This document shows positions 40 to 15,627 of a stretch of DNA of 15,711 bases, piece after piece. Every line of letters starts with the position of its first letter. Positions within the stretch are counted from its first letter, which is position 1. The notes beneath the pieces are model-generated. The model was not told the origin of the DNA. It saw nothing but the letters and a program-made list of their open reading frames with translations, and did not search any database. The position numbers and the translations under genes are program-made. Source of the stretch: Pseudomonadota bacterium (GTDB lineage: Bacteria; Pseudomonadota; Gammaproteobacteria; Burkholderiales; Thiobacillaceae); assembly GCA_021791235.1 (NCBI GenBank), contig JAJYXA010000577.1, positions 1 to 15,711 on the forward strand, written 5' to 3'.

Positions 40-129
40 GGAAGCGTGGCCGAGCGGTTTAAGGCACCGGTCTTGAAAACCGGCGATGGTGCAAGCCATC
101 CGTGAGTTCGAATCTCACCGCTTCCGCCA
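40..129 (+). tRNA. tRNA-Ser (anticodon UGA)
   Basis: A 90-nt class II tRNA. The acceptor stem pairs GGAAGCG (40-46) with CGCTTCC (119-125), followed by discriminator G and an encoded CCA (127-129). The anticodon stem CCGGT/ACCGG encloses the loop CTTGAAA, giving anticodon TGA at 74-76. A long variable arm, as in serine tRNAs, precedes a T-arm with loop TTCGAAT. Its 3' end is the integration site of the element. The element supplies an identical 14-bp end, so the tRNA stays intact after integration. Confidence 0.97.
116..129 (+). other. attL: attL core (3' end of tRNA-Ser)
   Basis: CACCGCTTCCGCCA covers part of the T-stem, the 3' acceptor strand and CCA. The same 14 bases occur at 15614-15627 beyond the integrase gene, and the flanking bases differ. 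This is the usual geometry of tyrosine-integrase insertion into the 3' end of a tRNA gene. The crossover must lie within this identity block. Confidence 0.92.
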
Positions 130-172
130 AAACACCAATAAAAACAATAACTTAAAAGTGTAGTGCGGGAAA

Positions 173-192
173 ACCCACCAGCAAACCCACCA
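173..192 (+). repeat. Paired ACCCACCA motifs, putative left integrase arm sites
   Basis: Two direct copies of ACCCACCA (173-180 and 185-192) start 12 bp apart, 44 bp inside the attL core. The same pair, same orientation and same 12-bp spacing, occurs near the other end (15462-15481). Direct repeats on both sides of a core are what arm-type binding sites of the integrase N-terminal domain look like. Binding by this integrase is inferred. Confidence 0.65.
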
Positions 193-216
193 CTAGCCGC
201 ACGCTTGAAAAACGTG

Positions 217-402
217 CTATTCGGGTAGCAGGTTCCCCGGTGTAAGCCCCCGCGCCTGCAGTATCCGGCGCAGTTTTCGCAGCGCCAGCCATTCGATGCG
301 GCGCACTTCCTGAACCGAAACCGGCCGCCCTTCCTCCGCGGACAATGCGGCCGCGATTTCTTCTTCCGTTGCGGTATCGATCGCCTCGGGCTGGTCTACC
401 AT
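217..402 (-). CDS. Small sigma-70 region 4-like DNA-binding protein
   Basis: This 61-residue protein has a region around residues 13-49 that resembles the helix-turn-helix of sigma-70 region 4: an acidic helix (EEEIAAAL), then SVQEVRRIEWLALRKLRRIL, close to the RIRQIEAKALRKLR signature of sigma factors. I chose the ATG at 402, which overlaps the TGA of the upstream gene (TGATG), implying translational coupling; a GTG one codon upstream is possible. It is the last gene before attL. A DNA-binding role is likely; whether it recruits RNA polymerase or merely shares the fold is unknown. It lacks region 2, so it is not a complete sigma factor. Confidence 0.6.
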   Translation of the reverse strand: MVDQPEAIDTATEEEIAAALSAEEGRPVSVQEVRRIEWLALRKLRRILQARGLTPGNLLPE

Positions 403-2846
403 CACTGCCCCACTGCGCTGGCCACGTCCGGCGCGCGCTCCGGCGCGAGTTCACCCGGCCGCCACCAGAAGTCTTGCCCCCAGTCCTCCTGCGCGCGGTC
501 GCGCATGCGGCTCAAATAGCCGGGGGAGAGCATTTCCTGCAGATCCTGCAGGCCCGCATGATCGAGCGCGGACTTGGCATACCACAGGTTGACGAATGGC
601 ATGTGCGAGCGGGCGAAGCGCACGGCCTCGGCGCCGGCGTGGGTGTCCTCTCCACGGATAGCCTGGCCGACGTTGCCGACCGTCAAATCCACAGCTTCGA
701 AGCCACTGCCGATCAGCGGGCCGGCAAGGTTCATCCAGTTGGGCACGCCCGCGCGGTTCTGGCCGCCCATGCCGGTGTAAAGGAAGTCGCCGAAGATGCC
801 CACCCCGCCGCCTTGGGCGAAAGCCGCGCCCCAAAACTTGGGCGTGGTCATGTCGCGCGGGTCTTTGCCGTTCACCATGTCCTTGAGTTCGACCGCCAGC
901 GCGCCAAAGATCGTCAGGGCGGTGCTGAGCCCCGCGCCGTAGGCCACGGATGAGGCCTTGTCGCCGGTACGCCACTGCTCGGCCATGCGTCCCCAATGCC
1001 GCGAAATCATTGCCATGGGGAAACCCTTGAACAGGGCGATGGAGCGCAGGAATTCGCCTTCGATGGTGCCTTTCTTGGTGCCACGGGTGACGGCCGCGCG
1101 GGTTTGCAAATCCTGCGACAGCGAGGCGAATTCGGATTCGTCGGCAATCGTGCCCAGCAGCCGGGAGACCGCCCTGTCCTGGTCGCGCAGCGACAGCCCC
1201 GCGGCCGTCAAGTCGGCTTCCGGGATCGCGCGCACGGCCTGCAGGGTCAGCATCTGGCTGCCGCGCCAGCTTTCCGGATGGGCCATCCGCCACACCTTGA
1301 AGTCGGTTTCGGTCACGCCCTTGGCGACCAGGCGCGCGCGGTCGCCCGCGTCGAGCGCCTGCCAGTCGGCGCGGGACATTTTGCCGAGCGCGCCCATCAT
1401 GGTGACGGAGAACCCGCGCCGCACGGCATCCGTCCAGGCTTCCAGCAGGCTGGCCTTCATCGTGGCGTTTGCCAGCTTGCCCGTCCACCCCTTGCCGACG
1501 TTGGCTTCCGCCCAGCGGTTCATGTCGGAAATCACGCTTTCCGCCACCAGGCCGGCGCGGTTGGCGTAGTCCGCCGAATCCTTGCCGAAGGCGCGCACCA
1601 GGTTGATGAGGGAATCGGCCACGCCCAGGCGGTTGAATCCCGTGGTGACGAAGTAGGTCGGCACGTCGGTGATGCTGGAAATCAGCGCCGAGCCGAGCTT
1701 GCCGAATACCTCAACATTGCGCGCGCCCTGGGCGACTTCGGCCAGCCTCACATTCGCCACCGTGCCGGTGTTGCCGTTGAGCACGTCCCACATGTTCTGC
1801 GTGCTGACCAGCCACGGGCCGACCATATCGGACGCACCCGTCCGCAGCGCGGTGTCGTGCAGGTAGCCCCACTGGGTGAGCGGGTTCGGGCCGAATTCCT
1901 CGACCAGGGCGATGTCGCGGGCAAGGCGCGAGACGTGCCCCTGCATCGCGGACAGGACGCCGCCCCGGTTGTAGTTCGCGGCATAGGTCAGATAGCTTTC
2001 AGCGTCCTTGAAGTGGATCGCCCGGTGCGCGCTGCCACGGTTCGCGCGCATGCCGGTTGTCTGGCCGGGCTCCGTCTTGTTCATGCCGCCGGTGGTGATG
2101 GTCTCCCATGCGCGGCTGAGCAGGTCGGTCATCTGCGCATCGTCGAGCCGTGCGCCGTTTTCGTCGACGTAGCGCGAGCGATCCAGCAGCGGCAGGATGT
2201 CGCCCACCCACTTGGACTGCCCCTCCTTGAGCACGCGCACGTCGTCGTGCGGCTGGGGCAGGTAACCGTAGTCGAGCTTCCCCACGTCGCCGCCGGATGC
2301 GTTGAACCGCTGCCGCATGGCCTCGACCGTGTTCAGCCACGCCTTGGCAGCCTTGGCCGCCAGCGGGTTGCCGGTCTGCTCGCCGAAAACCTCGCGCACC
2401 AGGTCGGCGGCCTGCCGCGCATCCTCCACCATGCCGAGGAACTTCGGGTTCACGGCGTTGAGAGTATCGATCAGGCCGGTAAAGTATTCGTTGGAAACCC
2501 CGCGCACGAAGCGGTGCGCATCGTCCAGCACGCGCGCCACCGCGTGGAACGGCTTCAGGCCGTCCGCCACCAGCGCGCTGTAGCGGTTCATCACCCGGTC
2601 ATGCGCCAGGATCGTCAGAGCCGTGCGCTGCTTGGCCTTGCCGGCTTCGTGCAGCAGGGCCTTGCCGGCTTCATCGGCGGCGGCGTTGAGCCTCGCCTCG
2701 CGGCTCATCTGCTGCCAGGCGGCGGGATCCTTGCGCGCCAGCTGCTTCATGCTGTCCACGATGCGGCCTTCGATGTTCTGGGCTTCCTGCTGGGTGACGC
2801 TGCGGCCGATGGCTTGCGCCACCGCCTGGATGCATTCGCTTCTCAT
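402..2846 (-). CDS. Large internal virion (ejection) protein, T7 gp16-like role
   Basis: An 814-residue protein typical of the large internal core protein of short-tailed phages, which leaves the capsid with the DNA and helps it cross the cell envelope. It is mostly alpha-helical. A hydrophobic segment lies near residues 636-654 (GLSTALTIFGALAVELKDM), followed by a Gly-rich stretch. A Trp-rich tail (QEDWGQDFWWRPGE) ends a conserved-looking C-terminal part. I chose the ATG at 2846 because it overlaps the upstream TGA (ATGA) and has a GAGG eight bases upstream; an ATG seven codons earlier is possible. The assignment rests on size, composition and position after a gp14-like gene and a murein-hydrolase gene. 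I see no enzymatic motif here. Confidence 0.6.
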   Translation of the reverse strand: MRSECIQAVAQAIGRSVTQQEAQNIEGRIVDSMKQLARKDPAAWQQMSREARLNAAADEAGKALLHEAGKAKQRTALTILAHDRVMNRYSALVADGLKPFHAVARVLDDAHRFVRGVSNEYFTGLIDTLNAVNPKFLGMVEDARQAADLVREVFGEQTGNPLAAKAAKAWLNTVEAMRQRFNASGGDVGKLDYGYLPQPHDDVRVLKEGQSKWVGDILPLLDRSRYVDENGARLDDAQMTDLLSRAWETITTGGMNKTEPGQTTGMRANRGSAHRAIHFKDAESYLTYAANYNRGGVLSAMQGHVSRLARDIALVEEFGPNPLTQWGYLHDTALRTGASDMVGPWLVSTQNMWDVLNGNTGTVANVRLAEVAQGARNVEVFGKLGSALISSITDVPTYFVTTGFNRLGVADSLINLVRAFGKDSADYANRAGLVAESVISDMNRWAEANVGKGWTGKLANATMKASLLEAWTDAVRRGFSVTMMGALGKMSRADWQALDAGDRARLVAKGVTETDFKVWRMAHPESWRGSQMLTLQAVRAIPEADLTAAGLSLRDQDRAVSRLLGTIADESEFASLSQDLQTRAAVTRGTKKGTIEGEFLRSIALFKGFPMAMISRHWGRMAEQWRTGDKASSVAYGAGLSTALTIFGALAVELKDMVNGKDPRDMTTPKFWGAAFAQGGGVGIFGDFLYTGMGGQNRAGVPNWMNLAGPLIGSGFEAVDLTVGNVGQAIRGEDTHAGAEAVRFARSHMPFVNLWYAKSALDHAGLQDLQEMLSPGYLSRMRDRAQEDWGQDFWWRPGELAPERAPDVASAVGQ

Positions 2847-4258
2847 ACTGGGAACCTCAAGGCGCAATTGACGGCCGCTTTGAATGCGGCGGTTTCGGTT
2901 CTGGCTTGGGCCTCGACCGTATCGGCGTGCTGGATCAGGTCGGCCATGCGCACGTCGGTGCCATCGTCCAGGCGGACAACGGCGTCGGGTGTGCGGGTTG
3001 CGATGTCGAGGGCGCGCACCTGTTCAGGGGTGGCGGGCTTGGCATCCGCCTGGCGCGCTGCCGGGTCTTGCCCGAGCATGCGCGTCATCACCTCGCGCAC
3101 CTGCTCGACGATCCTGTCCGGGATGCCGTCATCCGGCTGCAAAGCGGGTGTGGCGGGGCCGCCAGCGTCGGGCGGGGCCATCACCTCGGGCGGCGGGTTT
3201 AAGTCCATCCGGGTGGCTTCCAGCGCGTCGGGGGCCTCGCGTGCCACGGTCTCGCGCACACGCTGCGCGATGGTGCCGAGCTGGGCCGGGTCGGCGTCCA
3301 CCCGGTGGGCCACGTTGACCACCTCGCCGGCGTCCATCTGCTGGCGCGCGAGGATCTGCGCATCGTGTGCCTTGCCGGCCGCTGGCAGGTCTCCGGTACG
3401 CACCAGGGCGTCGCCGTCGCGCACCCGCACTTCGTTCATGGTCAGCAGGGCGGCGTGTTCGTCGGGGGACAGGCTCGCCGACTTGCCACGGTGGAACGCG
3501 CCGCCGAACGCCGCACCGGTCAGCGCGGCAATGGTGAGATTCACCGGGTCGAAGGGCTGGTACTGCGCCGCGATCTTGTCGTAATCCGCATGCTGCAGCA
3601 GCGCATGGATGCCGCCCACTTCCGCCACGGTCAGGGCCGGGTTCACCGCGCCGCCAATGGCCGCGCTCTGCAGTCGGGTCGCGCCCATCGCAGCGGGCAG
3701 GCGCATGCCCACGGCGGCGGACACCGCCGAGACCGTGCCGGCCAGTGCGGCGGTCTGGCCGTCCACGCCCTGGTCGCTCAATTCCTGCGCGCGGTTGATG
3801 CCCACATCCGCGCCGAACAGCACAGGCCCGGCAGGGCCAGCGGTCGAGTAGCCCACCGCCTTGCTGACGGTGGACAGCACGCCATGCGCGATCTGCCCGG
3901 CGATGCCGACCGCTTCCGGGTCGGGCGCGTAGTCCCTGGCCTTTTCCCGGAAGCCTCGCGCTACCGGGCTATTTCCCATCTGCTCGATCGTTTCGCGCTG
4001 CACCTTGCGCATATCCGGCGCGGGCTGCCCGTTGACGGCGGCCACCAGGGGCACGTCGCGGAATGCTGCCGCCTTGCCGTAGGCGTCGAGGATGGCCGAC
4101 CACGCGCTGGCCGTGGTGTATCCGGCATGCGGCAGCGAGTCCACCAGTGCGCTGCCGAAGCCCTGGAAGGTGCCCGGCGCGGGCTCCGGTTCGGGCGGGC
4201 GCTGCACCGACTGCGCGAGGGAGTTGTCGCGTTCTACGGGATAGAGTTCGTCGAACAT
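2843..4258 (-). CDS. Putative internal virion protein
   Basis: A 471-residue protein with a Pro-rich N-terminus (PPEPEPAPGTF, about residues 21-31). A central part, about residues 125-215, is rich in Ala, Gly and Val and contains several weakly hydrophobic stretches. The C-terminal half is charged and helical. Its ATG overlaps the stop of the hydrolase gene upstream (TAATG), and its TGA overlaps the start of the 814-residue gene downstream (ATGA). The three are therefore probably made in fixed ratio. I do not recognise a named domain. Position and composition suggest an ejection protein, perhaps corresponding to the N-terminal part of a protein that is single in other phages. Confidence 0.5.
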   Translation of the reverse strand: MFDELYPVERDNSLAQSVQRPPEPEPAPGTFQGFGSALVDSLPHAGYTTASAWSAILDAYGKAAAFRDVPLVAAVNGQPAPDMRKVQRETIEQMGNSPVARGFREKARDYAPDPEAVGIAGQIAHGVLSTVSKAVGYSTAGPAGPVLFGADVGINRAQELSDQGVDGQTAALAGTVSAVSAAVGMRLPAAMGATRLQSAAIGGAVNPALTVAEVGGIHALLQHADYDKIAAQYQPFDPVNLTIAALTGAAFGGAFHRGKSASLSPDEHAALLTMNEVRVRDGDALVRTGDLPAAGKAHDAQILARQQMDAGEVVNVAHRVDADPAQLGTIAQRVRETVAREAPDALEATRMDLNPPPEVMAPPDAGGPATPALQPDDGIPDRIVEQVREVMTRMLGQDPAARQADAKPATPEQVRALDIATRTPDAVVRLDDGTDVRMADLIQHADTVEAQARTETAAFKAAVNCALRFPV

Positions 4259-6828
4259 TACGGCGCCACCTTGAGCACGAAGGGTGCCCCCGTTGCATCG
4301 CGCACCACGTCGCTGCCGGTGCGGATCAGGTAGCTGCCCTGCCCGAAGGTCTGCAGCCGCGCGGCGGGGATGAACTTAGCCAGGTCGGCGCCGCTCAGCG
4401 CGACCCCGCCCGCGATGAACTTGCCGCCCTGTGCGGACAGGCGGGCGGGCACGGTCGAGCGCAGCGCATCGGCGAAGCGGCTGTCCGACCAGCCGTAGGG
4501 CTTGGCGATCCTGCCGCCGTTGTGCTCCACGATGCCGCCGGTGGCGATGTTCACTGCCTGCGCAACGTCGCCCCCGCCGTCCGCCCTGAACTTGGCGTAA
4601 ATCCCGAAAGCCGCTTCGGCGGCGGCATCGCGCCCCTGCGGGGTCTGGTAGACGCCTTCGAGGGCCTTGTAAATTTCCGCCTTGGTGCCGTACTCCTTCG
4701 CCTCGTCGATCTTGGCGCGCTTCTGCTCGATCGCTTCCTTGCCCTGCAGATAGAGCAACGCGGCATTGCTGCCCTCGGTTGTACGGTGCGCCGAGAGCAT
4801 CGCCGCCACGGCAAGGGTGCCGTGTTTGTCGTTGAGCTGGGTGGACAGCGACTGCACCCCGGCTGGCCCCGCCGCCGTGAAAACCTGCCCCAGCACGCGG
4901 GCCTTGTCCACGGCCTGAAGGCTGCCGAGGTACTGCCCGAAGGCGTCGGCCTCGGGGTCGGACATGATCGTCAGGCGAGTGCCGTAATCGACGGCCATCT
5001 GGCGCGCAGCACCGGCGCGTCGCGCGAGTTCCTGCGTCAGTCCCTTTGGGTCGTCGAACCGTTGCAACGGCTTGATGCCGTAGCTGCCTACGGCCATCGC
5101 GTAGCCCACCGGGTCGGTGGCGCGCGCCTGCTTCACCTGGTCAACGGCCTTGACCAGGATTTCATAGTTCTGCTGCCGCGCGGCGAAGCCCTCGCCGGGC
5201 GTCGGCTTGGCCGTTTCCAGCATATCGACCAGCGCGGCGGCGGGGAGGGTCTTGACCTGCTGCAGCGTCTGCCCCAGCTGGGCCACGCCCTTGAATTCCG
5301 CGAAGCGCTTCACGCCGTCCGCCTGCCCGTATGCCTGGATGAATTCGCCCTCGCTCGGCGCGTCGGGTGCGAAACCGTTGGTCAGGTAGGCGGACGACGC
5401 ATCCCGCACCCGGCTGCGCAGCGCATCGCGCGCTTCGGCCATGCCCTGGTTCGACTGCGCGCGGGCCAGCTGCATGACGTGCAGCCGCCAGTCGGCGGGC
5501 AAGGCATCCAGCATGGGGAATCCGGTTGCGGCCGTGGGGTCGCGTTGGGGACTGGCCGCCGTAGACGTGGGAATGGGTGTGCCTTCGGTCGCTGCGGCCA
5601 GCCCCGACGTGATCTGCTGGTCGGTGTACGGCTGCTGGCCGTTCTCGACGCGAATCATGGCGCGGGTCAGTTTGGTGAGGGTGGCGGTGTCGCGCAGGTT
5701 GAGCGGGTCGCCGGGCTTGACGCCCATTTCCTTCGCCACTGTGGTGGCATAGGCCACCGTGTTGTTCTCGGTCGCCGGTGCCCAGCGAACGAAGATGCCC
5801 TCCACGGTGTCAATGCCGTGCTTGTCCTGGTAGGTGAGCAGCGTCTTGCCCATGGCGCGGATACCTGCCTCGGGCGAGGAAAACGTCACGTAGCGCGGGT
5901 CGTTGCCCTGCACTTCGCCTTTCCAGCTGTCTCCCCCCTTCATCACGTTGCCGGGGTTGTTGTTGCGGATACCGCGCGGCTGCGAAGCGTCGCCGGGCGC
6001 CGAGGGCACGACACCCACCCCGCCGGCCTGGTTGAGCTGTGCCGCCAGCGCGGGCGCGGCGGCCTGGAAGAGCTGGCGGCCGATCTGCTCGCGCTTCAGT
6101 GGGCTGATCTGCTCGGCGTTGCGCTGGAAGTGGGCGAAAGCGCCCACCGGGTCTTTCATGCGCCATGCCTCGTAGCGCATTTCAAAGCCCGCATCCCGGT
6201 ACTTGGTCGCCTGCAGCTGCGCGGTGGCATCGTCCCAGCCGTTGAGCTTGGCGAGGGTCGCGGTTTCCTCCTGAGCCACCCCCACGGCCTGGGCGAAGCG
6301 CTGGTCGTCAGTGTAGTTGAACGCGGCATCCTGAATGCTCACGATGGCGCGCGAGTCGGCGGCCTGAATCTGGTATTTGCGCGATTCCTGCCCGGCGTGG
6401 CGGTTGACCGCATCCAGGGCGTTCTGCAAGCGGGCATTGACGACCGGCTCGACCATCTGGCGAACTGCCGGGTTCTGCACGCCGTCCAGCGCCTTCCGCT
6501 TGATGTCGTCGAAGCCCTTTATCACGGCTTCCGATCCGAGCACGGCGTCCTTGCCCTGCCGGATCATGAACCCGCTTTCCGGGTTGTAGAGCCGGTCGTT
6601 CAACCCCGCCGTCACCTGCGTGTCGATGTCCTTCGCCGCAGTGGCGTTGGCCTCGCGCTGCATGTCCACCGCGATGGCGCCGATGTGCTGGCCTAGATCG
6701 CTCAACCCCTTGCCGAGTTGCTGCGCCTGCGCGCCCGCCACGTCCGGCATGTTGGGCGCGGTCAGGCGGGATTGCGGCAGGCTGTTGGGGGTGGCCTGGA
6801 AGCCGTTGTACTGCGGTACGGTAGGCAC
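4258..6828 (-). CDS. Ejection protein with murein-hydrolase-like domain
   Basis: An 856-residue virion protein. Residues about 285-400 form a recognisable domain starting RGIRNNNPGNV, continuing with SPEAGIRAM (318-326) and RWAPATENNT (348-357). This pattern is common in phage structural proteins thought to open peptidoglycan during DNA entry. The rest is helical: N-terminal Gln/Ala-rich about 1-150, and a long C-terminal part after a Thr/Ser/Pro linker near 415-430. The start is GTG at 6828, supported by AAGGAG eight bases upstream; that motif overlaps the end of the preceding gene. T7 carries its comparable lytic domain in gp16; here it sits in a separate upstream gene. Peptidoglycan cleavage itself is inferred. 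Confidence 0.7.
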   Translation of the reverse strand: MPTVPQYNGFQATPNSLPQSRLTAPNMPDVAGAQAQQLGKGLSDLGQHIGAIAVDMQREANATAAKDIDTQVTAGLNDRLYNPESGFMIRQGKDAVLGSEAVIKGFDDIKRKALDGVQNPAVRQMVEPVVNARLQNALDAVNRHAGQESRKYQIQAADSRAIVSIQDAAFNYTDDQRFAQAVGVAQEETATLAKLNGWDDATAQLQATKYRDAGFEMRYEAWRMKDPVGAFAHFQRNAEQISPLKREQIGRQLFQAAAPALAAQLNQAGGVGVVPSAPGDASQPRGIRNNNPGNVMKGGDSWKGEVQGNDPRYVTFSSPEAGIRAMGKTLLTYQDKHGIDTVEGIFVRWAPATENNTVAYATTVAKEMGVKPGDPLNLRDTATLTKLTRAMIRVENGQQPYTDQQITSGLAAATEGTPIPTSTAASPQRDPTAATGFPMLDALPADWRLHVMQLARAQSNQGMAEARDALRSRVRDASSAYLTNGFAPDAPSEGEFIQAYGQADGVKRFAEFKGVAQLGQTLQQVKTLPAAALVDMLETAKPTPGEGFAARQQNYEILVKAVDQVKQARATDPVGYAMAVGSYGIKPLQRFDDPKGLTQELARRAGAARQMAVDYGTRLTIMSDPEADAFGQYLGSLQAVDKARVLGQVFTAAGPAGVQSLSTQLNDKHGTLAVAAMLSAHRTTEGSNAALLYLQGKEAIEQKRAKIDEAKEYGTKAEIYKALEGVYQTPQGRDAAAEAAFGIYAKFRADGGGDVAQAVNIATGGIVEHNGGRIAKPYGWSDSRFADALRSTVPARLSAQGGKFIAGGVALSGADLAKFIPAARLQTFGQGSYLIRTGSDVVRDATGAPFVLKVAP

Positions 6829-6833: not shown

Positions 6834-7205
6834 TTACTCCTTGACGTGAATGCTGCGGATGCCGTGTTTTTGCATCAGGCGCTGGACGGATCGCTCTGTC
6901 GCGCCCAATGTCCGGGCGATCTTTGCCACGCCGACGCCCTGCGCGGCCATGGTCCGCACCTGTTCCAGTTCGGCATCGTCTACGCGGTAAACGGTCCTTC
7001 CCTCATGTGTCGCCCAGGTGAGTCCGATTGCGATGGATCTGGCGGTCTTGTGGTCAATGCCGAAGATGGCGCCCAGCTCGCGGTAGGGCAAACCCCTTTG
7101 CTGCCGAAGGCGGCGCAGTTCCTCGACCTTCTCGGGGTTCATCTTCGCGCGTGCATTGCTGGTGCCGTAGGCCTTGCCAGCGGGTGTAGTCGCTGCGGCT
7201 TCCAT
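6834..7205 (-). CDS. Double helix-turn-helix DNA-binding protein
   Basis: A 123-residue protein with two helix-turn-helix candidates. The first is around residues 28-62 (YRELGAIFGIDHKTARSIAIG, ending in LTWAT), a pattern seen in DNA-binding parts of phage HNH-type proteins. The second is around 78-116 (IARTLGATERSVQRLMQKHGI), resolvase-like. No nuclease motif is visible. Its ATG directly abuts the TAG of the gp14-like gene, and its end supplies the ribosome binding site of the next gene. It may be a regulator of the module, or a homing endonuclease that has lost its catalytic domain. Confidence 0.65.
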   Translation of the reverse strand: MEAAATTPAGKAYGTSNARAKMNPEKVEELRRLRQQRGLPYRELGAIFGIDHKTARSIAIGLTWATHEGRTVYRVDDAELEQVRTMAAQGVGVAKIARTLGATERSVQRLMQKHGIRSIHVKE

Positions 7206-7731: not shown

Positions 7732-7959
7732 TCAGCGGTGGCAGCCTTGCCGCTCGGCCATGCCGTAGAGCACGTCCAGGTGGTCGGGCTGGTAGATGAG
7801 TTGCAGCGAGTAGACCGCCTGGCGCAGCTGCTCGTCGGGATGCCGCGCAAGCCAGCGGCGCACCACGGCGCGCTTTGATCTGGCGGCCATGTCCTGCATC
7901 TCCGGTGTGAGCGGCAGACCGTATTTCAGGCGGATGCGCATGCTCTGTTCGCTAGCCAT
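7732..7959 (-). CDS. Small hypothetical protein of the virion module
   Basis: A 75-residue basic protein with no domain I recognise; it has helical, amphipathic stretches (RSKRAVVRRWLARHPDEQLR). Its ATG lies inside the end of the upstream coiled-coil gene, an 8-base overlap ending in TAG, and the next gene starts 10 bases after its stop. The tight packing and good codon use support a real gene. The role is unknown. Confidence 0.55.
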   Translation of the reverse strand: MASEQSMRIRLKYGLPLTPEMQDMAARSKRAVVRRWLARHPDEQLRQAVYSLQLIYQPDHLDVLYGMAERQGCHR

Positions 7960-8641: not shown

Positions 8642-9082
8642 TCAGGCTACTGAGAAACCGGAGGGGTAATACGCGCCGGTGTTGATGCTGTGGTCAGTCA
8701 GGTGGCAGGTGAACTTGCCGGCGGTCAGCGGCCCAGTGGCGACGACATAGCGCATGCCGACGTAGCGATGGCCGGCGGGCATGTCGCTAAACGTAGTCTT
8801 GATGGGGATGGGCGCGCGTCCAGCCCCCAGGTCAGCCTTCGGGACCGCGCCGGATGATGCGAGCACGGTCGGGCTGGACAGGTCGGAGGCGGCCGAAGAG
8901 ACAATCTCGAACGCCACGGTGGCAGCACCAGCAGCAGCGACGGACTCGTCCACCGTGACAACGGCTGCCATCGGGTTACTGGCGCCGGGCGGCGGGGGGC
9001 CCATGTCGATATTGTTGACGGACATCGCCGTGGCGGTCACGGCCTGTGCATTGGACAGTTGCAGATTTGCGTCGAGAATCAT
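8642..9082 (-). CDS. Bbp16-type capsid cement protein
   Basis: A 146-residue protein with the look of the Bbp16 cement family of Bordetella phage BPP-1: N-terminus MILDANLQLSNAQAVTATAM, then a short Asp-Met-Gly-Pro turn, a beta-rich middle and an RYVGMRYVVATGP segment near the C-terminus. In BPP-1 this protein sits on the outside of the capsid and staples the HK97-fold subunits together. The ATG at 9082 is preceded by GAGAGG. In BPP-1 the major capsid gene is adjacent; here none is present, neither adjacent nor elsewhere in the element. Confidence 0.7.
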   Translation of the reverse strand: MILDANLQLSNAQAVTATAMSVNNIDMGPPPPGASNPMAAVVTVDESVAAAGAATVAFEIVSSAASDLSSPTVLASSGAVPKADLGAGRAPIPIKTTFSDMPAGHRYVGMRYVVATGPLTAGKFTCHLTDHSINTGAYYPSGFSVA

Positions 9083-9163: not shown

Positions 9164-9715
9164 CTACAGGTGGAATTCGATTCGCCGGGTGATGGGCGGC
9201 GGGGTGATCGAGCCATCGCGCCCCACCTTGATGGCGCCGATGTAGCCGGCGAGGTCAAAGCATCCCGTCGCGTCCTTCACCCACTCGATAGCGGTTTTCA
9301 GGCGGCCGTGCAGGGCGTTGCCACTGCTGCCGAAGTCCGAGGCATGCAGCACACTGCCGGCAGTCGCGCCGTGCAGCAGGATCGCCCAGGCTTCATCAAT
9401 GCCGGGGTGGCCGGGATGGGCGCAGGCCTGCTCAAATCCCTTGTTGCCTATCCATACGTAATCAGCGCGCCACCCCGCGTGGGCGAACGCCGTACCCGAA
9501 GTCAGCAGCGAGCCGCCAGCAGGGTCGCCACCCCGCGCGGCGAGGGGCTGCAGCATGGCGAACACCAAGGGCGTGCGCTGCTCGGCGATACCCATGCGCT
9601 TCCAGGCTTCCTCTCGCAAGTTGCCCAGGTGGTCGCGCTGGGTTGAATCCTGCGCAGCGTTGGCGGCGTTGCGCAGTGCCGTGTGGGTTTGTCGGTAGAA
9701 CTCCAGGTCATCCAT
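9164..9715 (-). CDS. Hypothetical protein, 183 residues
   Basis: I do not recognise this protein. It starts MDDLEFYRQTHTALRNAANA, is helical for about 40 residues, then mixed, with a Gly/His-rich centre (FGSSGNALHGRLKTAIEWV) and a beta-type end (GAIKVGRDGSITPPPITRRIEFHL, split here as GAIKVGRDGS then ITPPPITRRIEFHL). It is too short and unlike an HK97-fold capsid protein. It lies just upstream of the cement gene, where phages of this type have the capsid gene. Upstream, 38 further codons are open in the same frame back to the TAG of the preceding gene. Confidence 0.55.
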   Translation of the reverse strand: MDDLEFYRQTHTALRNAANAAQDSTQRDHLGNLREEAWKRMGIAEQRTPLVFAMLQPLAARGGDPAGGSLLTSGTAFAHAGWRADYVWIGNKGFEQACAHPGHPGIDEAWAILLHGATAGSVLHASDFGSSGNALHGRLKTAIEWVKDATGCFDLAGYIGAIKVGRDGSITPPPITRRIEFHL

Positions 9716-9829: not shown

Positions 9830-10258
9830 CTAGACCAGGTCGCTCACGTCGCCAGGGTCCGCCGGTCTCTGGCGTGCGGCGCGCACGTAGTAGCTGGCAT
9901 CGATGATCTGCGTTTGCTCGGCTTCCCGTTGCTTAAACCGGGCGCGCAGTTCCTGCCGGCGTTGCTCGCGCTCGGCTGCGCGGCGCTCTTCCAGCTGGCG
10001 CAGCTTCTCGGCCCGCGCCTTCGCTCTTGCCTCGATCTGCTCCTTGGTCTTCCAGTAGGCTGGCGGCGGGGCCTTGACTTCGAGTTCAGCCAGCAGGGTT
10101 TCGAAGTTCTCGAAGCGACCACGCAGCACCCGCAGTGCCTCCTGGATCAGCGGCCAGCGTTTGAAGCGGATGTGATCGTTCGAAATCACCCACAGCAGGT
10201 AGGCGGTGCTCATGGCTTCCACCGGCTGGCCCTTGTGTGCGCCCATCGGCATTTTCAT
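9830..10258 (-). CDS. DUF3820-like protein with a coiled-coil tail
   Basis: A 142-residue protein. Residues 1-50 (MPMGAHKGQPVEAMSTAYLLW, followed by VISN) match the short motif of DUF3820 and of the C-terminal domain of exonuclease X: a Pro-x-Gly-x-x-Lys-Gly turn then Tyr-Leu-x-Trp. These domains are linked to nucleic-acid handling. Residues about 70-125 are a highly charged helix (EQIEARAKARAEKLRQLEER), probably a coiled coil. The ATG at 10258 has AAGGAG six bases upstream. It is the first gene after the palindrome region, so it may be the first product of the late transcript. Function unknown. Confidence 0.6.
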   Translation of the reverse strand: MKMPMGAHKGQPVEAMSTAYLLWVISNDHIRFKRWPLIQEALRVLRGRFENFETLLAELEVKAPPPAYWKTKEQIEARAKARAEKLRQLEERRAAEREQRRQELRARFKQREAEQTQIIDASYYVRAARQRPADPGDVSDLV

Positions 10259-10278
10259 GCGTTGCTCCTTGTATCGCC

Positions 10279-10298: not shown

Positions 10299-10427
10299 TA
10301 CGGATCTGTATCACCCACGTGCTCGCACGTACTGCGGCAAAACCCTTTTTCAGGTGTCAAAATCTGGCGCGCCACCCTCTTTGCAAAATCCTGCGGGTTC
10401 ATCCACACACCGCCACGCAAACCCCCA

Positions 10428-10535
10428 TGCCACACGCCACACCCCCTAAAGGGTGGTGTGGCAGATGTGGCATAAAAACGGGGTTTTGCCACATGCCTCA
10501 TGCGGCCACATGTGGCGCTTGTGTGGCGTGTGGCA
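10428..10535. other. Iteron-like cluster, candidate replication origin
   Basis: Within 108 bp there are four GCCACA (10429, 10436, 10488, 10505) and five TGTGGC (10457, 10466, 10511, 10522, 10529). They form nested dyads: a perfect 15-bp inverted repeat as outer arms (10428-10442 with 10521-10535), ATGTGGCA/TGCCACAT (10465-10472 and 10487-10494) around an A/T-rich loop, GCCACACC-type arms at 10436-10462, and the 12-bp palindrome GCCACATGTGGC (10505-10516). Phage and plasmid RepA/alpha-type replication proteins bind such iterons next to their gene. No T-run follows the stems, so a terminator is unlikely. Confidence 0.6.
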
Positions 10536-12591
10536 TCGTTACCTTGTCGTCCAGCACGTGAAAAAATGCAGATTTGCTAAGGGACTCGATAGCCCGCTTG
10601 GCGCATTCGCGTCGTCGATCACGTCCCCCCGCTGGATCGTGAGGCATGGTCCGCACCACGTTGTCGATGATCGCGCCGACAGTAAGCGGCTCGTCTCCCA
10701 GCCCGGCCAGCTCGTGCACCATCTGTAGCACCGCCTTTTCCCATGCGCCCTTCGGCTCACGGGCGGGCGGCGGGGCTTCGTTCTGGTACTCGACCACGCA
10801 CGACACGATGGCCTCGCCGTCTTCATCCTCGCCCACGCGCACCGGCAGCAGGCCGAAGGCAAAGACCGCGCCGTCCTCGCCGTCCTTCTGCTTGGTGATG
10901 CGGGCGGCGCGGGCATCGGCCAAGCGCGTTATCTCAATCTCGGCATCAACGGCGGCCCGGATTCCCGACCATCCGCGCGCCCCCTTGGTAGCGTCCTTGC
11001 CCGAGTGGTGGATCAGCACCACCAGGGCGCCCGTAGCGGCGTGCAGGCGCTTGCAGCGGGCCAGCACCTTGCTCATGTCCTCGCCGGCGTTCTCATTCGC
11101 CCCTGGTGTGCTTTGCGCCAAGGTGTCGACCACCACGATGGAGGCCCCGCCCGCCAGCTCGATCGCCTGGGCGAGCGCCTTGTCGTCGTCGGTAAGCAAG
11201 TTGGGGGCGCTGGCTACCACGCCCAGCGGCAGCGCGGCCAGGTCGATCTCGTGCGCCAGTGCATAAGCCGCCAGCCGCTTGCGGAATCCGCCGGCACCCT
11301 CGGCGGCGACGTAAACCACCGCGCCCTGTCGAACCCTGCAGCCGCGCCACTCGATACCGCGCGCGACGGCGGCCACCAGGTCAAGGGCAAAGAAGGATTT
11401 ACCGCTCGCCGACTCGCCGTAGATGACGGCGATCTCGGCGAGCGGTAGCACTCCCTTGACGATCCACGACGGCGGGGTGCCTGCGGCGAACTCTGCAGCG
11501 GGGATAACTTCGAACTTGGGGCGCTCGGCGGCAAGCGGTGCCCCCAGCAGGTCGGATATGTCCTCAATAAAAGAGAAGTCATTCTCTACCGCCTTATGCA
11601 CAACGGGCATCCAAGCTGCCTCCGCCGCTGCCTGGTCCCCGTTGTGGTCAAGCACCACGTAGGCCGTCCAGGCATCGAACGTGCCGCACAGCGGATCGCT
11701 GGCGTGGTCCGACTGCCACAGGCCATCTTTGTCCGGTATTTCGCGGACACCCGGCAAGCCGGTGGCAGTTGGCGGGGCAAACCGCACACCGTCGCCGACA
11801 TAGTCATGGCGTCCAAGGATTTCCAGCACGTTGTTCAATGCATTGAATCCCTCGCGCAGTGCCGACTTGAAAGCCAGGGTCTTGCCGTCTGATCCACTGA
11901 CGGCCTTGAACGCCTTGATACCGAGAATCTCGCCAGCGCGCTGCTGCTGCCCGCGCTTGAACTCAAGGTCGGTGGACATGCGCAGCCACCATGCAAGAAA
12001 ATCGGCGGGCAGGTCCGGGGCTTCGTCCAGGCGCAAATCGGATGCATAGCGCTGGGTGCAAATCTCGCCATGCTTGTCTGCGTAGATGAGGCCCGGAATT
12101 GCGTCCTGCAGGTTGGCCGAGTGCGCCCGCAGCTCCAGCACCGTCCCGACATCCTTGAACGAGAACACCACCTTGCGCAGGCCCAGGTCGGCTTTGAAGG
12201 CCGAGCGCCCCCCGCTTCCCGCTCGTGTGCTGATCGATCGCACGCCGGCATTCAACAGGTCGTCAAGGTCGAAACCAAAGCCCGCCAGCATCTTCGCGGA
12301 AAGCTCGGCGTTGTCAGGATCGACCGAGCACAGCCCATTCGTTGCGAGCATGACGCCGTATCCGGTGGCCTCATGGTCGAACTGCTGAACAGGGCGGTGG
12401 TTCCAGTTGTCGCCCTCCGGCCGCTTGGTGTTCGGCTGCAGCTTGCACAGGGCAAAACCGCTCTTGAACAGGCGGTGTGCTTCCGACAGGTCGGGGGTGT
12501 TGCTTATTTTTTGTGCTGCTATACTGGCGTCTGCTAGTTGTATTTCCTTTGTCGCCTCGGTTGCCGCCGGGGCGTTTGTTTTTTGGATCAT
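10498..12591 (-). CDS. Prim-Pol / RepA-type helicase replication protein
   Basis: A 697-residue two-domain replication protein. The N-terminal part (about 35-205) resembles the bifunctional primase-polymerase domain, with the acidic pair D91/D93 in SVDPDNAE. Residues about 360-600 form a RecA-like RepA/DnaB-type helicase: Walker A GESASGKSF (392-400, K398), Walker B VVVDT (486-490), and a LIHHSGKD motif (526-533). It probably primes and unwinds the element's own DNA. I chose the ATG at 12591: it overlaps the previous stop (ATGA) and follows AGGAGG at 8-base spacing. Its last codons run through the iteron cluster. Confidence 0.88.
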   Translation of the reverse strand: MIQKTNAPAATEATKEIQLADASIAAQKISNTPDLSEAHRLFKSGFALCKLQPNTKRPEGDNWNHRPVQQFDHEATGYGVMLATNGLCSVDPDNAELSAKMLAGFGFDLDDLLNAGVRSISTRAGSGGRSAFKADLGLRKVVFSFKDVGTVLELRAHSANLQDAIPGLIYADKHGEICTQRYASDLRLDEAPDLPADFLAWWLRMSTDLEFKRGQQQRAGEILGIKAFKAVSGSDGKTLAFKSALREGFNALNNVLEILGRHDYVGDGVRFAPPTATGLPGVREIPDKDGLWQSDHASDPLCGTFDAWTAYVVLDHNGDQAAAEAAWMPVVHKAVENDFSFIEDISDLLGAPLAAERPKFEVIPAAEFAAGTPPSWIVKGVLPLAEIAVIYGESASGKSFFALDLVAAVARGIEWRGCRVRQGAVVYVAAEGAGGFRKRLAAYALAHEIDLAALPLGVVASAPNLLTDDDKALAQAIELAGGASIVVVDTLAQSTPGANENAGEDMSKVLARCKRLHAATGALVVLIHHSGKDATKGARGWSGIRAAVDAEIEITRLADARAARITKQKDGEDGAVFAFGLLPVRVGEDEDGEAIVSCVVEYQNEAPPPAREPKGAWEKAVLQMVHELAGLGDEPLTVGAIIDNVVRTMPHDPAGGRDRRRECAKRAIESLSKSAFFHVLDDKVTMPHATQAPHVAA

Positions 12592-12821
12592 TGGCCGCCC
12601 TCCTGTGGCTTGCGTGCTGGCAGATAGCCCCACGCTGAGCGGATACCCTCGGCTTGAGCATTGATGACATCCTGGACAGATTCCTGGCGATAGAACCAGT
12701 GCCATTTGCCGTCCTTGTGCACCGTGTAGTCGGGCGGCCCAAAGGTCTTGATCGTGGTCTCGGGCAGGTGCACCTTCTTGGCGAATTCCTCAAGGGTGTA
12801 GTCGGTCGGGGCGCGCTTCAT
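12588..12821 (-). CDS. Small HTH-type protein, possible excisionase
   Basis: A 77-residue protein with an N-terminal helix-turn-helix candidate (TLEEFAKKVHLPETTIKTFG, residues 9-28) followed by a wing-like segment (YTVHKDGKWHWFYR). It resembles small MerR/Xis-type DNA-binding proteins. It is coupled on both sides by ATGA overlaps, between the AlpA-type gene and the replication gene. It could be the recombination directionality factor or a replication accessory; I cannot distinguish these. Confidence 0.5.
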   Translation of the reverse strand: MKRAPTDYTLEEFAKKVHLPETTIKTFGPPDYTVHKDGKWHWFYRQESVQDVINAQAEGIRSAWGYLPARKPQEGGQ

Positions 12822-13175: not shown

Positions 13176-13427
13176 TCACAGCGCGGGAAGTGGCATGTCA
13201 CGCACGAGGTCTTCGCACTCTTCCGAGAGCCGCAAGCACGCGAAGAAATAGGCGACCCGCGGCCCGGTATCCATGTCCTGTAGGCCGCCGCCACCTGCGG
13301 CGCACATCAGTAGGGCCGACAACTGGCCGAGGCGGGCGCACAGTTCGTCGGCGGCATCGTGCATGGCCTGCACGTCGGATTTACCTTCAACAGTCTTGAG
13401 TTTTTGAGCTACAGTTTGCAAAGCCAA
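13176..13427 (-). CDS. Small hypothetical protein, TTG start
   Basis: An 83-residue, mostly helical protein with a central Gly run (CAAGGGGLQ) and an acidic C-terminal part (LRLSEECEDLVRDMPLPAL). I do not recognise it. The open frame extends to an ATG at 13487, but that start lies in a stem-loop without a good ribosome site. A TTG at 13427 has AAGGAG at 7-base spacing, so I prefer it. It is the last gene before the terminator. Function unknown. Confidence 0.55.
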   Translation of the reverse strand: MALQTVAQKLKTVEGKSDVQAMHDAADELCARLGQLSALLMCAAGGGGLQDMDTGPRVAYFFACLRLSEECEDLVRDMPLPAL

Positions 13428-13459
13428 GGTGCATCTCCTTATCAGGTGCTTCGTGGTCA

Positions 13460-13494
13460 GGGCGGGGTGGGTGTTATCGGCACCCATCCTGCCC
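13460..13494 (+). other. GC-rich stem-loop after hicB
   Basis: Two 14-base arms (13460-13473 and 13481-13494) pair along their whole length on the plus strand with two G-U pairs, around a 7-base loop, and a short T-run follows (13497-13500). On the minus strand the same positions are A-C mismatches and no T-run follows. It therefore looks like a plus-strand terminator, although no plus-strand gene lies upstream. It could stop antisense transcription into hicB. Confidence 0.4.
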
Positions 13495-13496
13495 GC

Positions 13497-13523: not shown

Positions 13524-13847
13524 AATACCCTTCTCGATCACGTCTGAAACCCAAGCATTCAGGCTCTTGCCATGCGACTCTGCCACCATGGCGGCGCGAG
13601 CATGAAGCTCCGGGGCAAGCCTCAATCGGAATTGCCCAGAGTAAGGGCGACTCGGCTCTCTGCCCACCTTCCTGCAGGTCTCCAGATAGTCCTCGACGGC
13701 CTCCTCGAAAGCGGCCTTCAACTCGGCAACGCTCTCGCCGTGGAAACCGATCACATCCTGTACGCCGGCAATGTGGCCGATGAAGCAGCCGTCCTCTTCG
13801 CTGTATTCGACCCGGGCAGCGAACCCTTTATGTGTCATCGTGCTCAT
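13512..13847 (-). CDS. hicB: HicB family antitoxin
   Basis: A 111-residue protein with the two-part HicB layout. Residues about 8-65 form the partial RNase H-like fold that binds HicA (FAARVEYSEEDGCFIGHIAG, then AFEEAVEDYLETCRKVGREP). Residues about 72-108 form a ribbon-helix-helix DNA-binding domain (GQFRLRLAPELHARAAMVAE, then LNAWVSDVIEKG). It neutralises the toxin and should repress its own promoter. Its ATG overlaps the hicA stop (ATGA). The last two codons and the stop lie in a direct repeat shared with the integrase gene end. Confidence 0.9.
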   Translation of the reverse strand: MSTMTHKGFAARVEYSEEDGCFIGHIAGVQDVIGFHGESVAELKAAFEEAVEDYLETCRKVGREPSRPYSGQFRLRLAPELHARAAMVAESHGKSLNAWVSDVIEKGITAA

Positions 13848-14098
13848 GGCTTTACTCCAAGATTTTCCAGGAACTGCCTTGCATCGCGCACCTGGTAGGG
13901 CTTCGCCTCCTTGGCGGGGTGTGGCCGGTGAAAGGTGGCGATATGGCCCGCCTTCTCAAAGCGAACGCGGGACCCGTTGCCCTCGATCACCTGGCAGCCA
14001 ACAGCCACCAGCAATGCCTCGATGCGACGCCACTCAAGCGTTTTGGAGACCGGGTCGGTAAAGACGGCGGCCAGTGTCTTGCGGTGGCTGGCATTCAT
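13844..14098 (-). CDS. hicA: HicA family toxin (mRNA interferase)
   Basis: An 84-residue protein of the HicA family: a helix with RRIEALLVAVGCQV, then EGNGSRVRF (GSR at 42-44), the HRPHP motif (57-61) and a C-terminal ARQFLENLGV helix. HicA toxins cleave mRNA in the absence of HicB. In the E. coli protein a His follows the Gly-Ser turn; here that place holds Arg and the histidines are in HRPHP, as I recall for one HicA subfamily. It is the first gene of the pair and is likely to stabilise the element in its host. Confidence 0.88.
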   Translation of the reverse strand: MNASHRKTLAAVFTDPVSKTLEWRRIEALLVAVGCQVIEGNGSRVRFEKAGHIATFHRPHPAKEAKPYQVRDARQFLENLGVKP

Positions 14099-14104
14099 GT
14101 TTGA

Positions 14105-14132: not shown

Positions 14133-14154
14133 GCATTATTTTTGAGCGTCCTGT

Positions 14155-14181
14155 TTTTGCCCGAGACCGTCAGGCGGCAGT
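14155..14181. repeat. 27-bp direct repeat, copy at the 3' end of the integrase gene
   Basis: This copy supplies the last codons and stop of the integrase gene and the bases after it. It matches 13497-13523 with two mismatches. The DNA between the two copies is exactly the hicAB cassette, with one repeat unit making a 658-bp period. Confidence 0.85.
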
Positions 14182-15435
14182 CTTACTCATCAGCGTCACC
14201 ACGTTGCCGGCCTTCTTCGGCTCGCACCACGCGGCCCAGTCGGCCATCAGCTGGCGCCGCTTCTCGAACATATCGCCGCGCCGGTAAGCCGCTTCCACCT
14301 TGTTGCCGACGACGTGCGCCAGCGCCATTTCCACCATGTCACGGTCGTAATGCGTGGTCTCAGCGGCCCAATCCCGGAAAGATGAGCGAAACCCATGAGG
14401 CACGATCGCCCTGCCGGATTGCGCGTCCACCCACTTTTCCAAGCCCTCTTTTACCCTGTGCGCGTTCATCCGCTTCAACGGCTGACCAAGGCCGCCACTG
14501 TCCACGGGTTCGCCAATGATCCTGCCGGGGAAGACGTATTCCCCTTGGCATATCTGCTTCGCTTTGGCGAGCACAGCCAGTGCGGCAGCCGAGAGCGGCA
14601 CCCTGTGTTCCCTGCGCGCCTTCATCCTATCCGCCGGGATGGTCCACACGCCCTTTTCCATGTCTATCTCGTTCCACTTCGCCTCACTGGCTTCGCTGCA
14701 GCGCGATGCTGTAAGAATCAGGAACTCCAGGCAAAGCAAGGTAGCGCCCTCATGCTGGCGCAGCTTGCCCATGAACTCGCGCATCTGAGTGTACGGCAGG
14801 GCAGGCTGGGGCTCGTGTCGCCCGATCTTGGGCAGCACGTTGTCGAGGTGGCCGCGCCACGCGGCGGGGTTCTCGCCCTGCCGGTAGCCCTTCACCTTGG
14901 CGTATGAGAGCACCCGCTCGATCCTGCCGCGCAGCCGCGTGGCTGTTTCCGTCTTGATAATCCAAATCGGGTTGAGCACTTCCAGCACCATGGCGGTGTC
15001 AATCTCGCCGACCGGCGTGTCACCGATGACGGGGTAAGCGTAGGTGGCAAGAGTGTTTTCCCACTGGCTGACGTGCTTGACGTTCTTCCAGCCGGCCCGG
15101 TTGGCCTCGATGTACTCTAGTGACACCTTTTTGAAGGTGATGGCCCCCGCGGCGATCTGCGCCGCGCGAGCTGCTGCTTCACTGGCTTGCTGCTTGCGGT
15201 ATTCCAGCGGGTCGATCTTGTTGTGCACCAGGGCGCGGGCCTCGGCAGCGCGCCGCCGGGCATCCTTCGCGCTCACGTCGACCAGTGAGCCCAAGCCCAT
15301 CTCGCGGCGCTTGCCGTTCAGCTGAAATCGGTAGATCCACGACTTCGCCCCCGACTGGCTGACCTGAAGGTACAGCCCATCACCGTCAAGCCAATAGCCA
15401 GGCTTGGCGTGTTTTATCTTCAGCTCAGTAAGCAT
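14170..15435 (-). CDS. int: P4-type tyrosine integrase
   Basis: A 421-residue site-specific recombinase. Residues 1-85 form the DUF4102 arm-binding domain (LTELKIKHAKPGYWLDGDGL, then MGLGSLVDVSAKDARRRA). A SAM-like core-binding domain covers about 100-195. The catalytic domain shows R245 (TASRCSEA), a Lys near 272, H347 and R350 (VPHGFRSSFRDW), H374 (ALAHVVGN) and nucleophile Y384 (EAAYRRGD). It inserts the element into the 3' end of tRNA-Ser and, with a directionality factor, excises it. The ATG at 15435 has GGAGG eight bases upstream. The gene lies at the attR end, distant from the tRNA gene in the integrated state. Confidence 0.95.
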   Translation of the reverse strand: MLTELKIKHAKPGYWLDGDGLYLQVSQSGAKSWIYRFQLNGKRREMGLGSLVDVSAKDARRRAAEARALVHNKIDPLEYRKQQASEAAARAAQIAAGAITFKKVSLEYIEANRAGWKNVKHVSQWENTLATYAYPVIGDTPVGEIDTAMVLEVLNPIWIIKTETATRLRGRIERVLSYAKVKGYRQGENPAAWRGHLDNVLPKIGRHEPQPALPYTQMREFMGKLRQHEGATLLCLEFLILTASRCSEASEAKWNEIDMEKGVWTIPADRMKARREHRVPLSAAALAVLAKAKQICQGEYVFPGRIIGEPVDSGGLGQPLKRMNAHRVKEGLEKWVDAQSGRAIVPHGFRSSFRDWAAETTHYDRDMVEMALAHVVGNKVEAAYRRGDMFEKRRQLMADWAAWCEPKKAGNVVTLMSKTAA

Positions 15436-15461
15436 GTTCGCACCTCCGCCACACCAGATTT

Positions 15462-15481: not shown

Positions 15482-15483
15482 TT

Positions 15484-15513
15484 ATTGTGCTGGATTTTCT
15501 TAAACGAAGTCAA
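15484..15513 (-). promoter_or_regulatory. Integrase promoter
   Basis: On the minus strand TTGACT (15508-15513) and CACAAT (15484-15489) are separated by 18 bases, a good sigma-70 promoter about 50 bases before the integrase start. An ACTACAG half-site (15515-15521) touches its -35 box. Confidence 0.6.
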
Positions 15514-15588
15514 ACTGTAGTGAACTTAAATTTTCAGAAAGCCGCGCCCTTGCTGGCTCTGGCGTTGCTGGTTTTGAACTTGGTTGAA

Positions 15589-15604
15589 CTGTAGTACACT
15601 ACAG
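15589..15604. promoter_or_regulatory. CTGTAGT palindrome, regulator or excisionase site candidate
   Basis: CTGTAGTACACTACAG has 7-base inverted arms around a central AC. A third copy of the arm lies at 15515-15521, next to the integrase -35 box. The palindrome starts 10 bases inside the attR core. Sites for AlpA or an excisionase would be expected in this arm; the assignment is inference. Confidence 0.45.
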
Positions 15605-15613
15605 ACAGGCGGA

Positions 15614-15627
15614 CACCGCTTCCGCCA
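15614..15627 (+). other. attR: attR core
   Basis: CACCGCTTCCGCCA is identical to the last 14 bases of the tRNA-Ser gene. It is the displaced original tRNA end, and chromosome sequence continues to its right. Confidence 0.92.

Follow-up and report, generated by a model that had tools for sequence, protein, structure and literature searches.

A 15.5-kb mobile element from Thiobacillaceae is probably a phage satellite that carries its own capsid cement and ejection genes

The 15,711-bp window analysed here (contig JAJYXA010000577.1 of the Thiobacillaceae assembly GCA_021791235.1) contains an element of 15,498 bp, measured copy to copy between two 14-bp attachment (att) cores, that is most probably a complete mobile satellite of a new family bringing its own capsid cement protein and ejection machine. 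We favor a satellite over a deleted prophage because elements of the same design recur in other genera, a relative preserves a phage attachment site (attP) junction, the ejection genes are under purifying selection, the elements that carry cement are nearly constant in length, and the family falls into three clades of a gp17 tree. The element also has what marks satellites in general, being mobile by the evidence of its att copies and the attP junction and carrying no genes for making a particle. A first-pass annotation had likewise read the element as a satellite and not a deleted prophage, with both att sites in the window (cores at 116-129 and 15614-15627), an integrase, AlpA and a replication protein of its own (all matched in Pfam, Prim-Pol below threshold) and intact genes (18 of 18 open reading frames, ORFs, are open), and the analysis supports all of this.

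What distinguishes the element is the set of virion genes that it has kept. Profiles derived from the phages BPP-1, phiV10 and BcepC6B detect cement, internal virion protein (ivp), gp15, gp16 and gp17 genes in the window (the names gp15 to gp17 are taken from BcepC6B), and the same profiles find no large terminase subunit (TerL), portal, protease, major capsid protein (MCP) or tail tube A or B there. The cement protein matches the Bbp16 family of Pfam at 6e-30 and the BPP-1 cement chain 3j4u_H at 9e-22. The four-gene ejection module includes a gp15-like protein with an endolysin-like domain at about residues 281-421, of which residues 281-401 match the endolysin 7q47 at 1e-22. The Bbp16-type cement and the internal virion proteins with a murein-hydrolase-like domain described in the first-pass annotation are thus both present. 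All 18 ORFs were scanned with Pfam (10 + 8) and 10 with PHROGs, the eight ORFs from the integrase to g9830 by Pfam only; within this coverage no capsid, portal or TerL family was found, no tail-tube or lysis gene was recognised, and no protein matched Psu or Sid. Profiles, families and ORF sizes agree on the absence of capsid, portal and terminase genes, and neither tail nor lysis genes were found, as had been claimed; the label P4-type, in contrast, proved loose, fitting the integrase and AlpA and finding no counterpart in Psu or Sid. A hidden capsid, portal or TerL gene was rejected, since the largest ORF of unassigned function encodes 225 aa and is too small for any of the three; longer ORFs antisense to genes (up to 877 aa) were treated as spurious. 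The helix-turn-helix (HTH) protein at 6834-7205 has one weak match to a small-terminase PHROG (2.8e-4) among 32 HTH-type matches. The minus strand carries every likely gene, from the integrase to g217, and the features are as follows.

40..129, plus strand: tRNA-Ser (TGA), the integration site (ARAGORN)
116..129, unstranded: att core CACCGCTTCCGCCA at the tRNA 3' end (repeat; identical core in the L080 attP)
217..405, minus strand: g217, 62-aa protein, 65% identical to its L080 counterpart
402..2846, minus strand: gp17-like ejection/virion protein (phrog_684, 5e-223)
2843..4258, minus strand: gp16-like ejection protein (phrog_1145; profile match)
4258..6828, minus strand: gp15-like ejection protein with endolysin-like domain (phrog_992, 2e-98; 7q47/9vvp)
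6834..7205, minus strand: HTH DNA-binding protein (PHROGs, Pfam)
7206..7697, minus strand: ivp, internal virion protein of the T7 gp14 family (PHROGs; PF24072)
7732..7959, minus strand: g7732, 75-aa protein with a homolog in L090
7952..8629, minus strand: g7952, 225-aa coiled-coil protein adjoining cement, candidate size or scaffold factor (AlphaFold2, AF2, model)
8642..9082, minus strand: capsid cement protein, Bbp16 family (Pfam, PHROGs, structure chain match)
9164..9715, minus strand: g9164, 183-aa protein with homologs; low-confidence structure model (67.1)
9830..10258, minus strand: g9830, 142-aa protein; homologs follow the Rep gene in L090, L092 and L093
10250..10497 (scanned 10,250-10,510), unstranded: non-coding DNA with short repeats and palindromes, possible origin (suggestive only)
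10498..12591, minus strand: Rep, replication protein with an AAA_25 ATPase and a weak, sub-threshold Prim-Pol match (Pfam)
12588..12821, minus strand: g12588, 77-aa protein without assigned function, conserved in L080
12818..13009, minus strand: AlpA regulator/excisionase (Pfam; 98% in L080)
13176..13487, minus strand: g13176, 103-aa protein without assigned function, conserved in L080
13512..13847, minus strand: HicB antitoxin (Pfam)
13844..14098, minus strand: HicA toxin (Pfam)
14170..15435, minus strand: tyrosine integrase (Pfam; 78% to L080)
15614..15627, unstranded: att core CACCGCTTCCGCCA at the integrase end (repeat)

The origin-like DNA of the first-pass annotation therefore stands only as a suggestion drawn from those repeats and palindromes. 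A whole-window megablast against phages and plasmids returned the tRNA-Ser alone among the matches listed.

The clearest sign of mobility comes from L080, a partial contig of a Burkholderiaceae metagenome-assembled genome (MAG) that lacks the Rep-to-ivp interval. Its gene order is gp17, g217, a 279-bp spacer, integrase, AlpA and Rep. Within the spacer, at 7298-7311, lies the exact 14-bp core, bordered by the counterparts of the window's two element ends (82 of 97 and 164 of 184 positions identical). Judged by sequence, the spacer is an attP junction, whether from a circle or from a tandem copy, and it follows that the core recombines.

The same design was found in 10 further elements, nine of them in bacterial genomes (including the partial L080) and one on an IMG/VR contig (L105). 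A gp17 search of genome contigs returned five loci, 79-91% identical: L080, L090 (Magnetospirillum aberrantis), L091 (Azonexus hydrophilus), L092 (an Azonexus MAG) and L093 (Aromatoleum toluolicum). Recombinase and replication genes are joined to the ejection genes in all five; the four seen whole are without portal, MCP and tail-tube genes, and TerL is absent from all but L091. Profile and family scans recognised neither ivp nor cement in L093. Four more elements were recognised by inspection, in genomes G465 (L188), G544 (L190), G050 (L193) and G801 (L298); the same genome searches also yielded three phage loci (G574, G115, G024) and partial gp17 matches in G398, G377 and G170. In these overlapping searches, gp17 matches occurred in 7 of 399 genomes of the order of G005, in 6 of 395 of the family of G004 (1e-100) and in 3 of 76 of the genus of G004. 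A deletion had been expected to betray itself by relatives with capsid, portal and terminase genes between positions 9083 and 9830 and by a gene order confined to one strain, and the relatives showed neither; a prophage deleted in a single strain is ruled out by the recurrence in other genera.

Phages with related genes are built differently. Tail-tube genes accompany 54 of the 55 IMG/VR gp17 loci in which ivp lies more than 1.5 kb from the contig edge (from a sample of 82 loci, with an underlying listing of the best 80 of 95), and the elements lack them, so that their design is distinct from that of the phages. The exception, L105 (L105:1-10309), is an even smaller element with integrase, DnaB-like helicase, ivp and gp17, in which no gp15 or gp16 was found. 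Near-full-length relatives of gp17 fall into 58 clusters with identities of 67% or higher, the window's own cluster and that of the phage-borne P0056 among them, with context known for few. No gp17 above 69% identity was among the matches listed in the IMG/VR scans, a scarcity perhaps explained by such elements being without the hallmark genes on which virus-finding programs rely, and the 26 plasmid records with gp17 were all below 60%. Relatives at 72-75% (P0038, P0031, P0046) occur in Bordetella avium and Castellaniella records.

The search of other genomes for this gene order, which the first-pass annotation had proposed for tRNA-Ser, thus succeeded as to the order and showed that further sites are used. 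L090, L092 and L193 sit in the anticodon loop of tRNA-Leu, with both tRNA halves seen and repeats of 9-11 bp; L190 lies at the 3' end of tRNA-Glu (12-bp repeat), L188 at the 3' end of tRNA-Leu (17-bp repeat) and L093 at tRNA-Arg (47-bp repeat). The recombinases differ as well: they are tyrosine types, except that the L190 type also matches DNA invertases (phrog_95, phrog_125) and looks like a serine recombinase. The anticodon-loop elements carry a replacement tRNA-Leu(UAA), which in L092 (L092:1847-2125) is interrupted by a group I intron (RF00028 at 1851-2053; 39.9 bits, E 1.5e-8, short of the gathering score, 50). A split gene much like it is present in L193 (L193:15928-16204), and the L090 copy is unsplit. 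The HicA and HicB proteins are 89% and 79% identical to the pair in L091, next to integrases only about 27% alike, with synonymous sites near saturation in the comparison, and the two genes seem to travel together as one module.

The ratio of nonsynonymous to synonymous substitution rates (dN/dS) ranged from 0.03 to 0.51 over all gene pairs compared, and no internal stop was present in 20 pairs. Between the window and L080 it was 0.15 for gp17, 0.23 for gp16, 0.22 for gp15, 0.23 for the integrase and 0.03 for AlpA, and between L091 and L092 it was 0.09-0.15 for ivp, gp15, gp16 and gp17. Across pairs, gp17 gave 0.15, 0.09, 0.19 and 0.20 and gp15 gave 0.22, 0.13 and 0.26, values that indicate purifying selection on the ejection genes. 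Such selection, with open frames, holds for the genes of integration, replication and cement as well.

In a gp17 tree of 35 rows, including ten satellites with full gp17 (L105 left out) and some long branches, the satellites form three groups: a window clade of six, L190 with L193 (beside phiV10), and L188 with L298. A single satellite clade was rejected (approximately unbiased test, p 1.3e-84); the group tested was defined by gene content, but an earlier 170-row tree had already been seen. Since the gp17 clades are separate, this architecture probably has three or more origins. In the 170-row tree the window clade comprises 54 rows (support 91), none of shown phage context. Its sister, L102 (IMG/VR 3300047277_000288), belongs to a record of 28 kb that has a portal gene at the contig end and genes reading like RepA and ParA beside gp17, and is perhaps a phage-plasmid. 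In satellites of the first two groups gp15 is long (850-869 aa) and gp16 is short (426-575 aa). At 53 phage loci the median lengths, approximate because the first ATG of each frame was taken, are 672 and 755 aa, with gp15 of at least 840 aa in none and gp16 of at most 575 aa in six; phiV10 (837, 600) comes nearest. L188 and L298 are phage-like in these lengths (gp15 685; gp16 739 and 836).

The length of the elements may bear on how they are packaged. The five cement-carrying elements with mapped ends measure 15,498 bp (window), 15,520 bp (L090), 15,623 bp (L092), 15,753 bp (L190) and 15,765 bp (L193), a mean of 15,632 bp with a coefficient of variation of 0.8%, despite different recombinases and membership of two gp17 clades. 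Elements without cement are longer, at 17,067 bp (L188), 21,037 bp (L093) and about 19.5 kb (L091, from a 12-bp repeat only); L298 and L105 were not measurable and stand outside the comparison. Cement was assigned by phrog_427 in all five (1.5e-28, 3e-16, 8e-16, 6.5e-13 and 5e-17); the Bbp16 match in Pfam is above the cut-off in the window, L090 and L193 and below it in L092, and it missed L190. Among contigs shorter than 60 kb, 6 of 48 fall at 15.5-16.1 kb where 0.6 are expected (p 3e-5), a bin chosen post hoc and suggestive only.

A constant length would be expected if the DNA had to fit a shell of fixed size. P4 and the Staphylococcus aureus pathogenicity islands (SaPIs) are about one third the length of their helpers and are packed in T=4 shells. 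The 15.6 kb of these elements stands in a ratio of 0.37-0.40 to the 39-42 kb of phiV10 and BPP-1, and it is possible that their DNA is likewise housed in a small shell. BPP-1 itself has a T=7 capsid, and removal of its cement gene leaves no infectious particles (PMC3863775, excerpt). All five cement-carrying elements encode a protein of 214-298 aa near the cement gene, downstream of it in the window and upstream in the other four. These proteins have no PHROG match beyond weak ones and their kinship across elements is not established, with no BLAST similarity between g7952 and those of L090 and L092. The AF2 model of g7952 has long helices (pLDDT, predicted local distance difference test, 75.6) and matches only generic coiled-coil folds. 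A Sid-like role for g7952 would be a guess from position and shape; no P4 protein is among the fold matches.

We propose that the satellite acts when a podovirus helper grows in the same cell. The integrase and AlpA would excise the element and Rep would copy the excised DNA, while the helper would provide shell, portal, motor, tail and lysis. Cement and the coiled-coil protein may bind the helper's Bbp17-like shell and set its size or stability, and ivp, gp15, gp16 and gp17 may load behind the portal of helper procapsids in place of the helper's own proteins. In T7 the ejection proteins form an inner core and then a channel through the periplasm; here the particle would eject satellite DNA via a channel made by the satellite. 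The likely gain would be a core that fits a small head, and interference with helper DNA that is given the wrong ejection proteins. Going further, we tentatively suggest, as a possibility somewhat short of a probability, that these elements form a class that replaces the helper's ejection machine, thereby setting its own rules of entry and disabling helper DNA, that cement and the coiled-coil protein build a shell holding exactly one genome of about 15.6 kb, that the class has at least three origins, and that it may serve ejection-less podovirus heads in some hosts.

Several observations weigh against a packaged satellite. The helper search covered eight satellite genomes, G801 and the window's own genome not among them, and no co-resident helper was found. 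The BPP-1-type MCP was seen in none of the eight (in a search with no positive control), and the only cement was the satellites' own (G002, G004 and G050 positive), in a search that missed G544 (L190) despite its phrog_427 protein and detected one of three phage genomes (G115). Tail tube B occurred in one of the eight, in a Magnetospirillum block without ejection genes, and in three of three phage controls; a portal was likewise found in one of eight, and the L102 record was also positive. No packaging signal was identified in the element. Between the window and L080 the N-terminal part of Rep (dN/dS 0.51) and the HTH gene (0.45) are less constrained, 48 of the 54 rows in the window clade are database proteins without known context, L080 could be a tandem copy instead of a circle, and the TerL-like gene of L091 means that some elements could be reduced phages. 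This gene lies in a cement-less Azonexus hydrophilus element (L082:13375-15021; phrog_2, 1e-39), after the HTH gene and a 122-aa gene, and marks a variant with its own packaging motor.

An alternative explanation is that the element is a defective prophage, a podovirus stripped of its terminase-portal-capsid block, tail genes and fibre/lysis block. Taking blocks out of a full phage would leave the order cement, ivp, gp15, gp16, gp17, Rep homologs and Bbp16 homologs lie 7-10 kb apart in 15 IMG/VR loci (the content of the interval was not inspected), and the absence of a helper from the searched genomes would follow naturally. Nevertheless, the same blocks would have to have been lost in each of three gp17 clades, and decay accords poorly with purifying selection on the ejection genes, with the near-constant length of the cement-carrying elements and with the att copies and attP junction. 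A simple deletion would also leave a mismatch of head types unexplained: the cement is of the BPP-1/phiV10 type, and, of the phages nearest by gp17, those whose heads were examined (L103, L104) have a phrog_3437 MCP, with a phrog_38 TerL in L103, so that head and ejection types point to different phages. We therefore consider a defective prophage unlikely. By sequence, the element is a mosaic, and of the BPP-1-like helper in the first-pass annotation the cement type is what survives, set against the missing BPP-1-type MCP and the other head type of the gp17-nearest phages.

The genome of Magnetospirillum aberrantis (G002), which harbors L090, also contains a compact podovirus block of about 17 kb (L196:1-18735; contig C38, about 150,000-168,700). 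The block has portal, MCP, tail tubes, fibres, TerL and endolysin, and no ivp, gp15, gp16, gp17, integrase or replication gene was recognised in it. Its MCP family, phrog_3437, recurs in the gp17-related phages L103, L104 and L077, and its TerL family, phrog_38, in L075, L076, L077, L103 and L106. Such a pairing could be taken for a phage in two mutually dependent parts, the block supplying heads and tails and the 15-kb element supplying ejection, replication and integration, the more so as phages whose gp17 is close to that of the satellites have these same two families. We regard this as very improbable: MCP and tail tube of the block occur in only one of the eight satellite genomes, which also rules the block out as a general helper, and gp16 and gp17 occur in 0 of 80 of its MCP relatives within the DNA examined (ivp in 20, gp15 in 1), so that the lack of ejection genes looks like a trait of the family rather than a match to the satellite. 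The IMG/VR relatives of this MCP number at least 80, many on contigs of 12-20 kb, and the family is possibly gene-transfer-agent-like or a reduced prophage. Equally doubtful is a weapon island, unpackaged, whose ejection proteins poison or enter helper particles and block helper infection; such proteins could work in trans, the element has HicAB and HTH genes, and a PADLOC scan of 10 of the 18 proteins detected no known defence gene, which we count in its favor, but it does not call for a constant length, would not explain why cement is retained beside the ejection genes, and sits poorly with elements spread over what we take to be two bacterial classes.

If the satellite reading is correct, it extends the ways in which satellites exploit helpers. 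Known satellites take over capsid assembly, packaging or tails of the helper, and the delivery step could then be taken over too, in a genetic system that separates the ejection proteins from the particle carrying them. The repeated origin and near-fixed length make control of capsid size directly testable. Among the papers listed in searches of the open-access PMC literature, no title or abstract opening describes a satellite with ejection genes; subscription papers and preprints are mostly outside that body, and absence from print is not established.

The element shares features with several known systems. P4-like satellites, which use P2 as helper, share the integrase, AlpA, a replication protein of their own and the absence of capsid, terminase and tail genes. 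A further likeness is a protein on the outside of the helper capsid, which in P4 is Psu (PMC8628076, excerpt). The window differs in that its scanned proteins show no Psu or Sid match and in having a phage-derived cement gene and four ejection genes, neither of which the excerpted P4 text mentions. At the level of Pfam domains the Rep of the window also appears to differ, matching AAA_25 and, below threshold, Prim-Pol. Phage-inducible chromosomal islands (PICIs) and capsid-forming PICIs (cfPICIs) have a core of integrase, AlpA and primase/helicase, and cfPICIs represent three independent radiations (PMC11389934, excerpt); this family shares the core genes and, probably, the several independent radiations. 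The cfPICIs make their own capsids (PMC11389934, excerpt), whereas the window lacks capsid, portal and terminase and has ejection and cement genes instead. PICIs carry a small terminase or capsid-redirecting gene, where the window shows one weak HTH-type match to a small-terminase PHROG, with g9164 and g7952 unassigned. The phages phiV10, BcepC6B and BPP-1 share homologous cement and gp14/gp15-type proteins, and phiV10 and BcepC6B also gp16 and gp17, but they are genomes of 39-42 kb with TerL, portal, MCP, tail tubes, fibres and lysis genes. Against a BPP-1/epsilon15-like prophage, the window has the expected cement and ejection genes and not the MCP, portal and TerL. The text of EcCIMP1, as excerpted, names no ejection or cement genes, unlike the window (PMC11773190), and the 4.6-kb Charybdis elements are different from the window element (PMC12324425, excerpt). 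The Streptomyces satellites Mulch and Flayer likewise bring structural genes, but they encode encapsidation machinery without key replication genes (PMC10690885, excerpt), and thus divide the labour with their helper in the reverse of the way proposed here.

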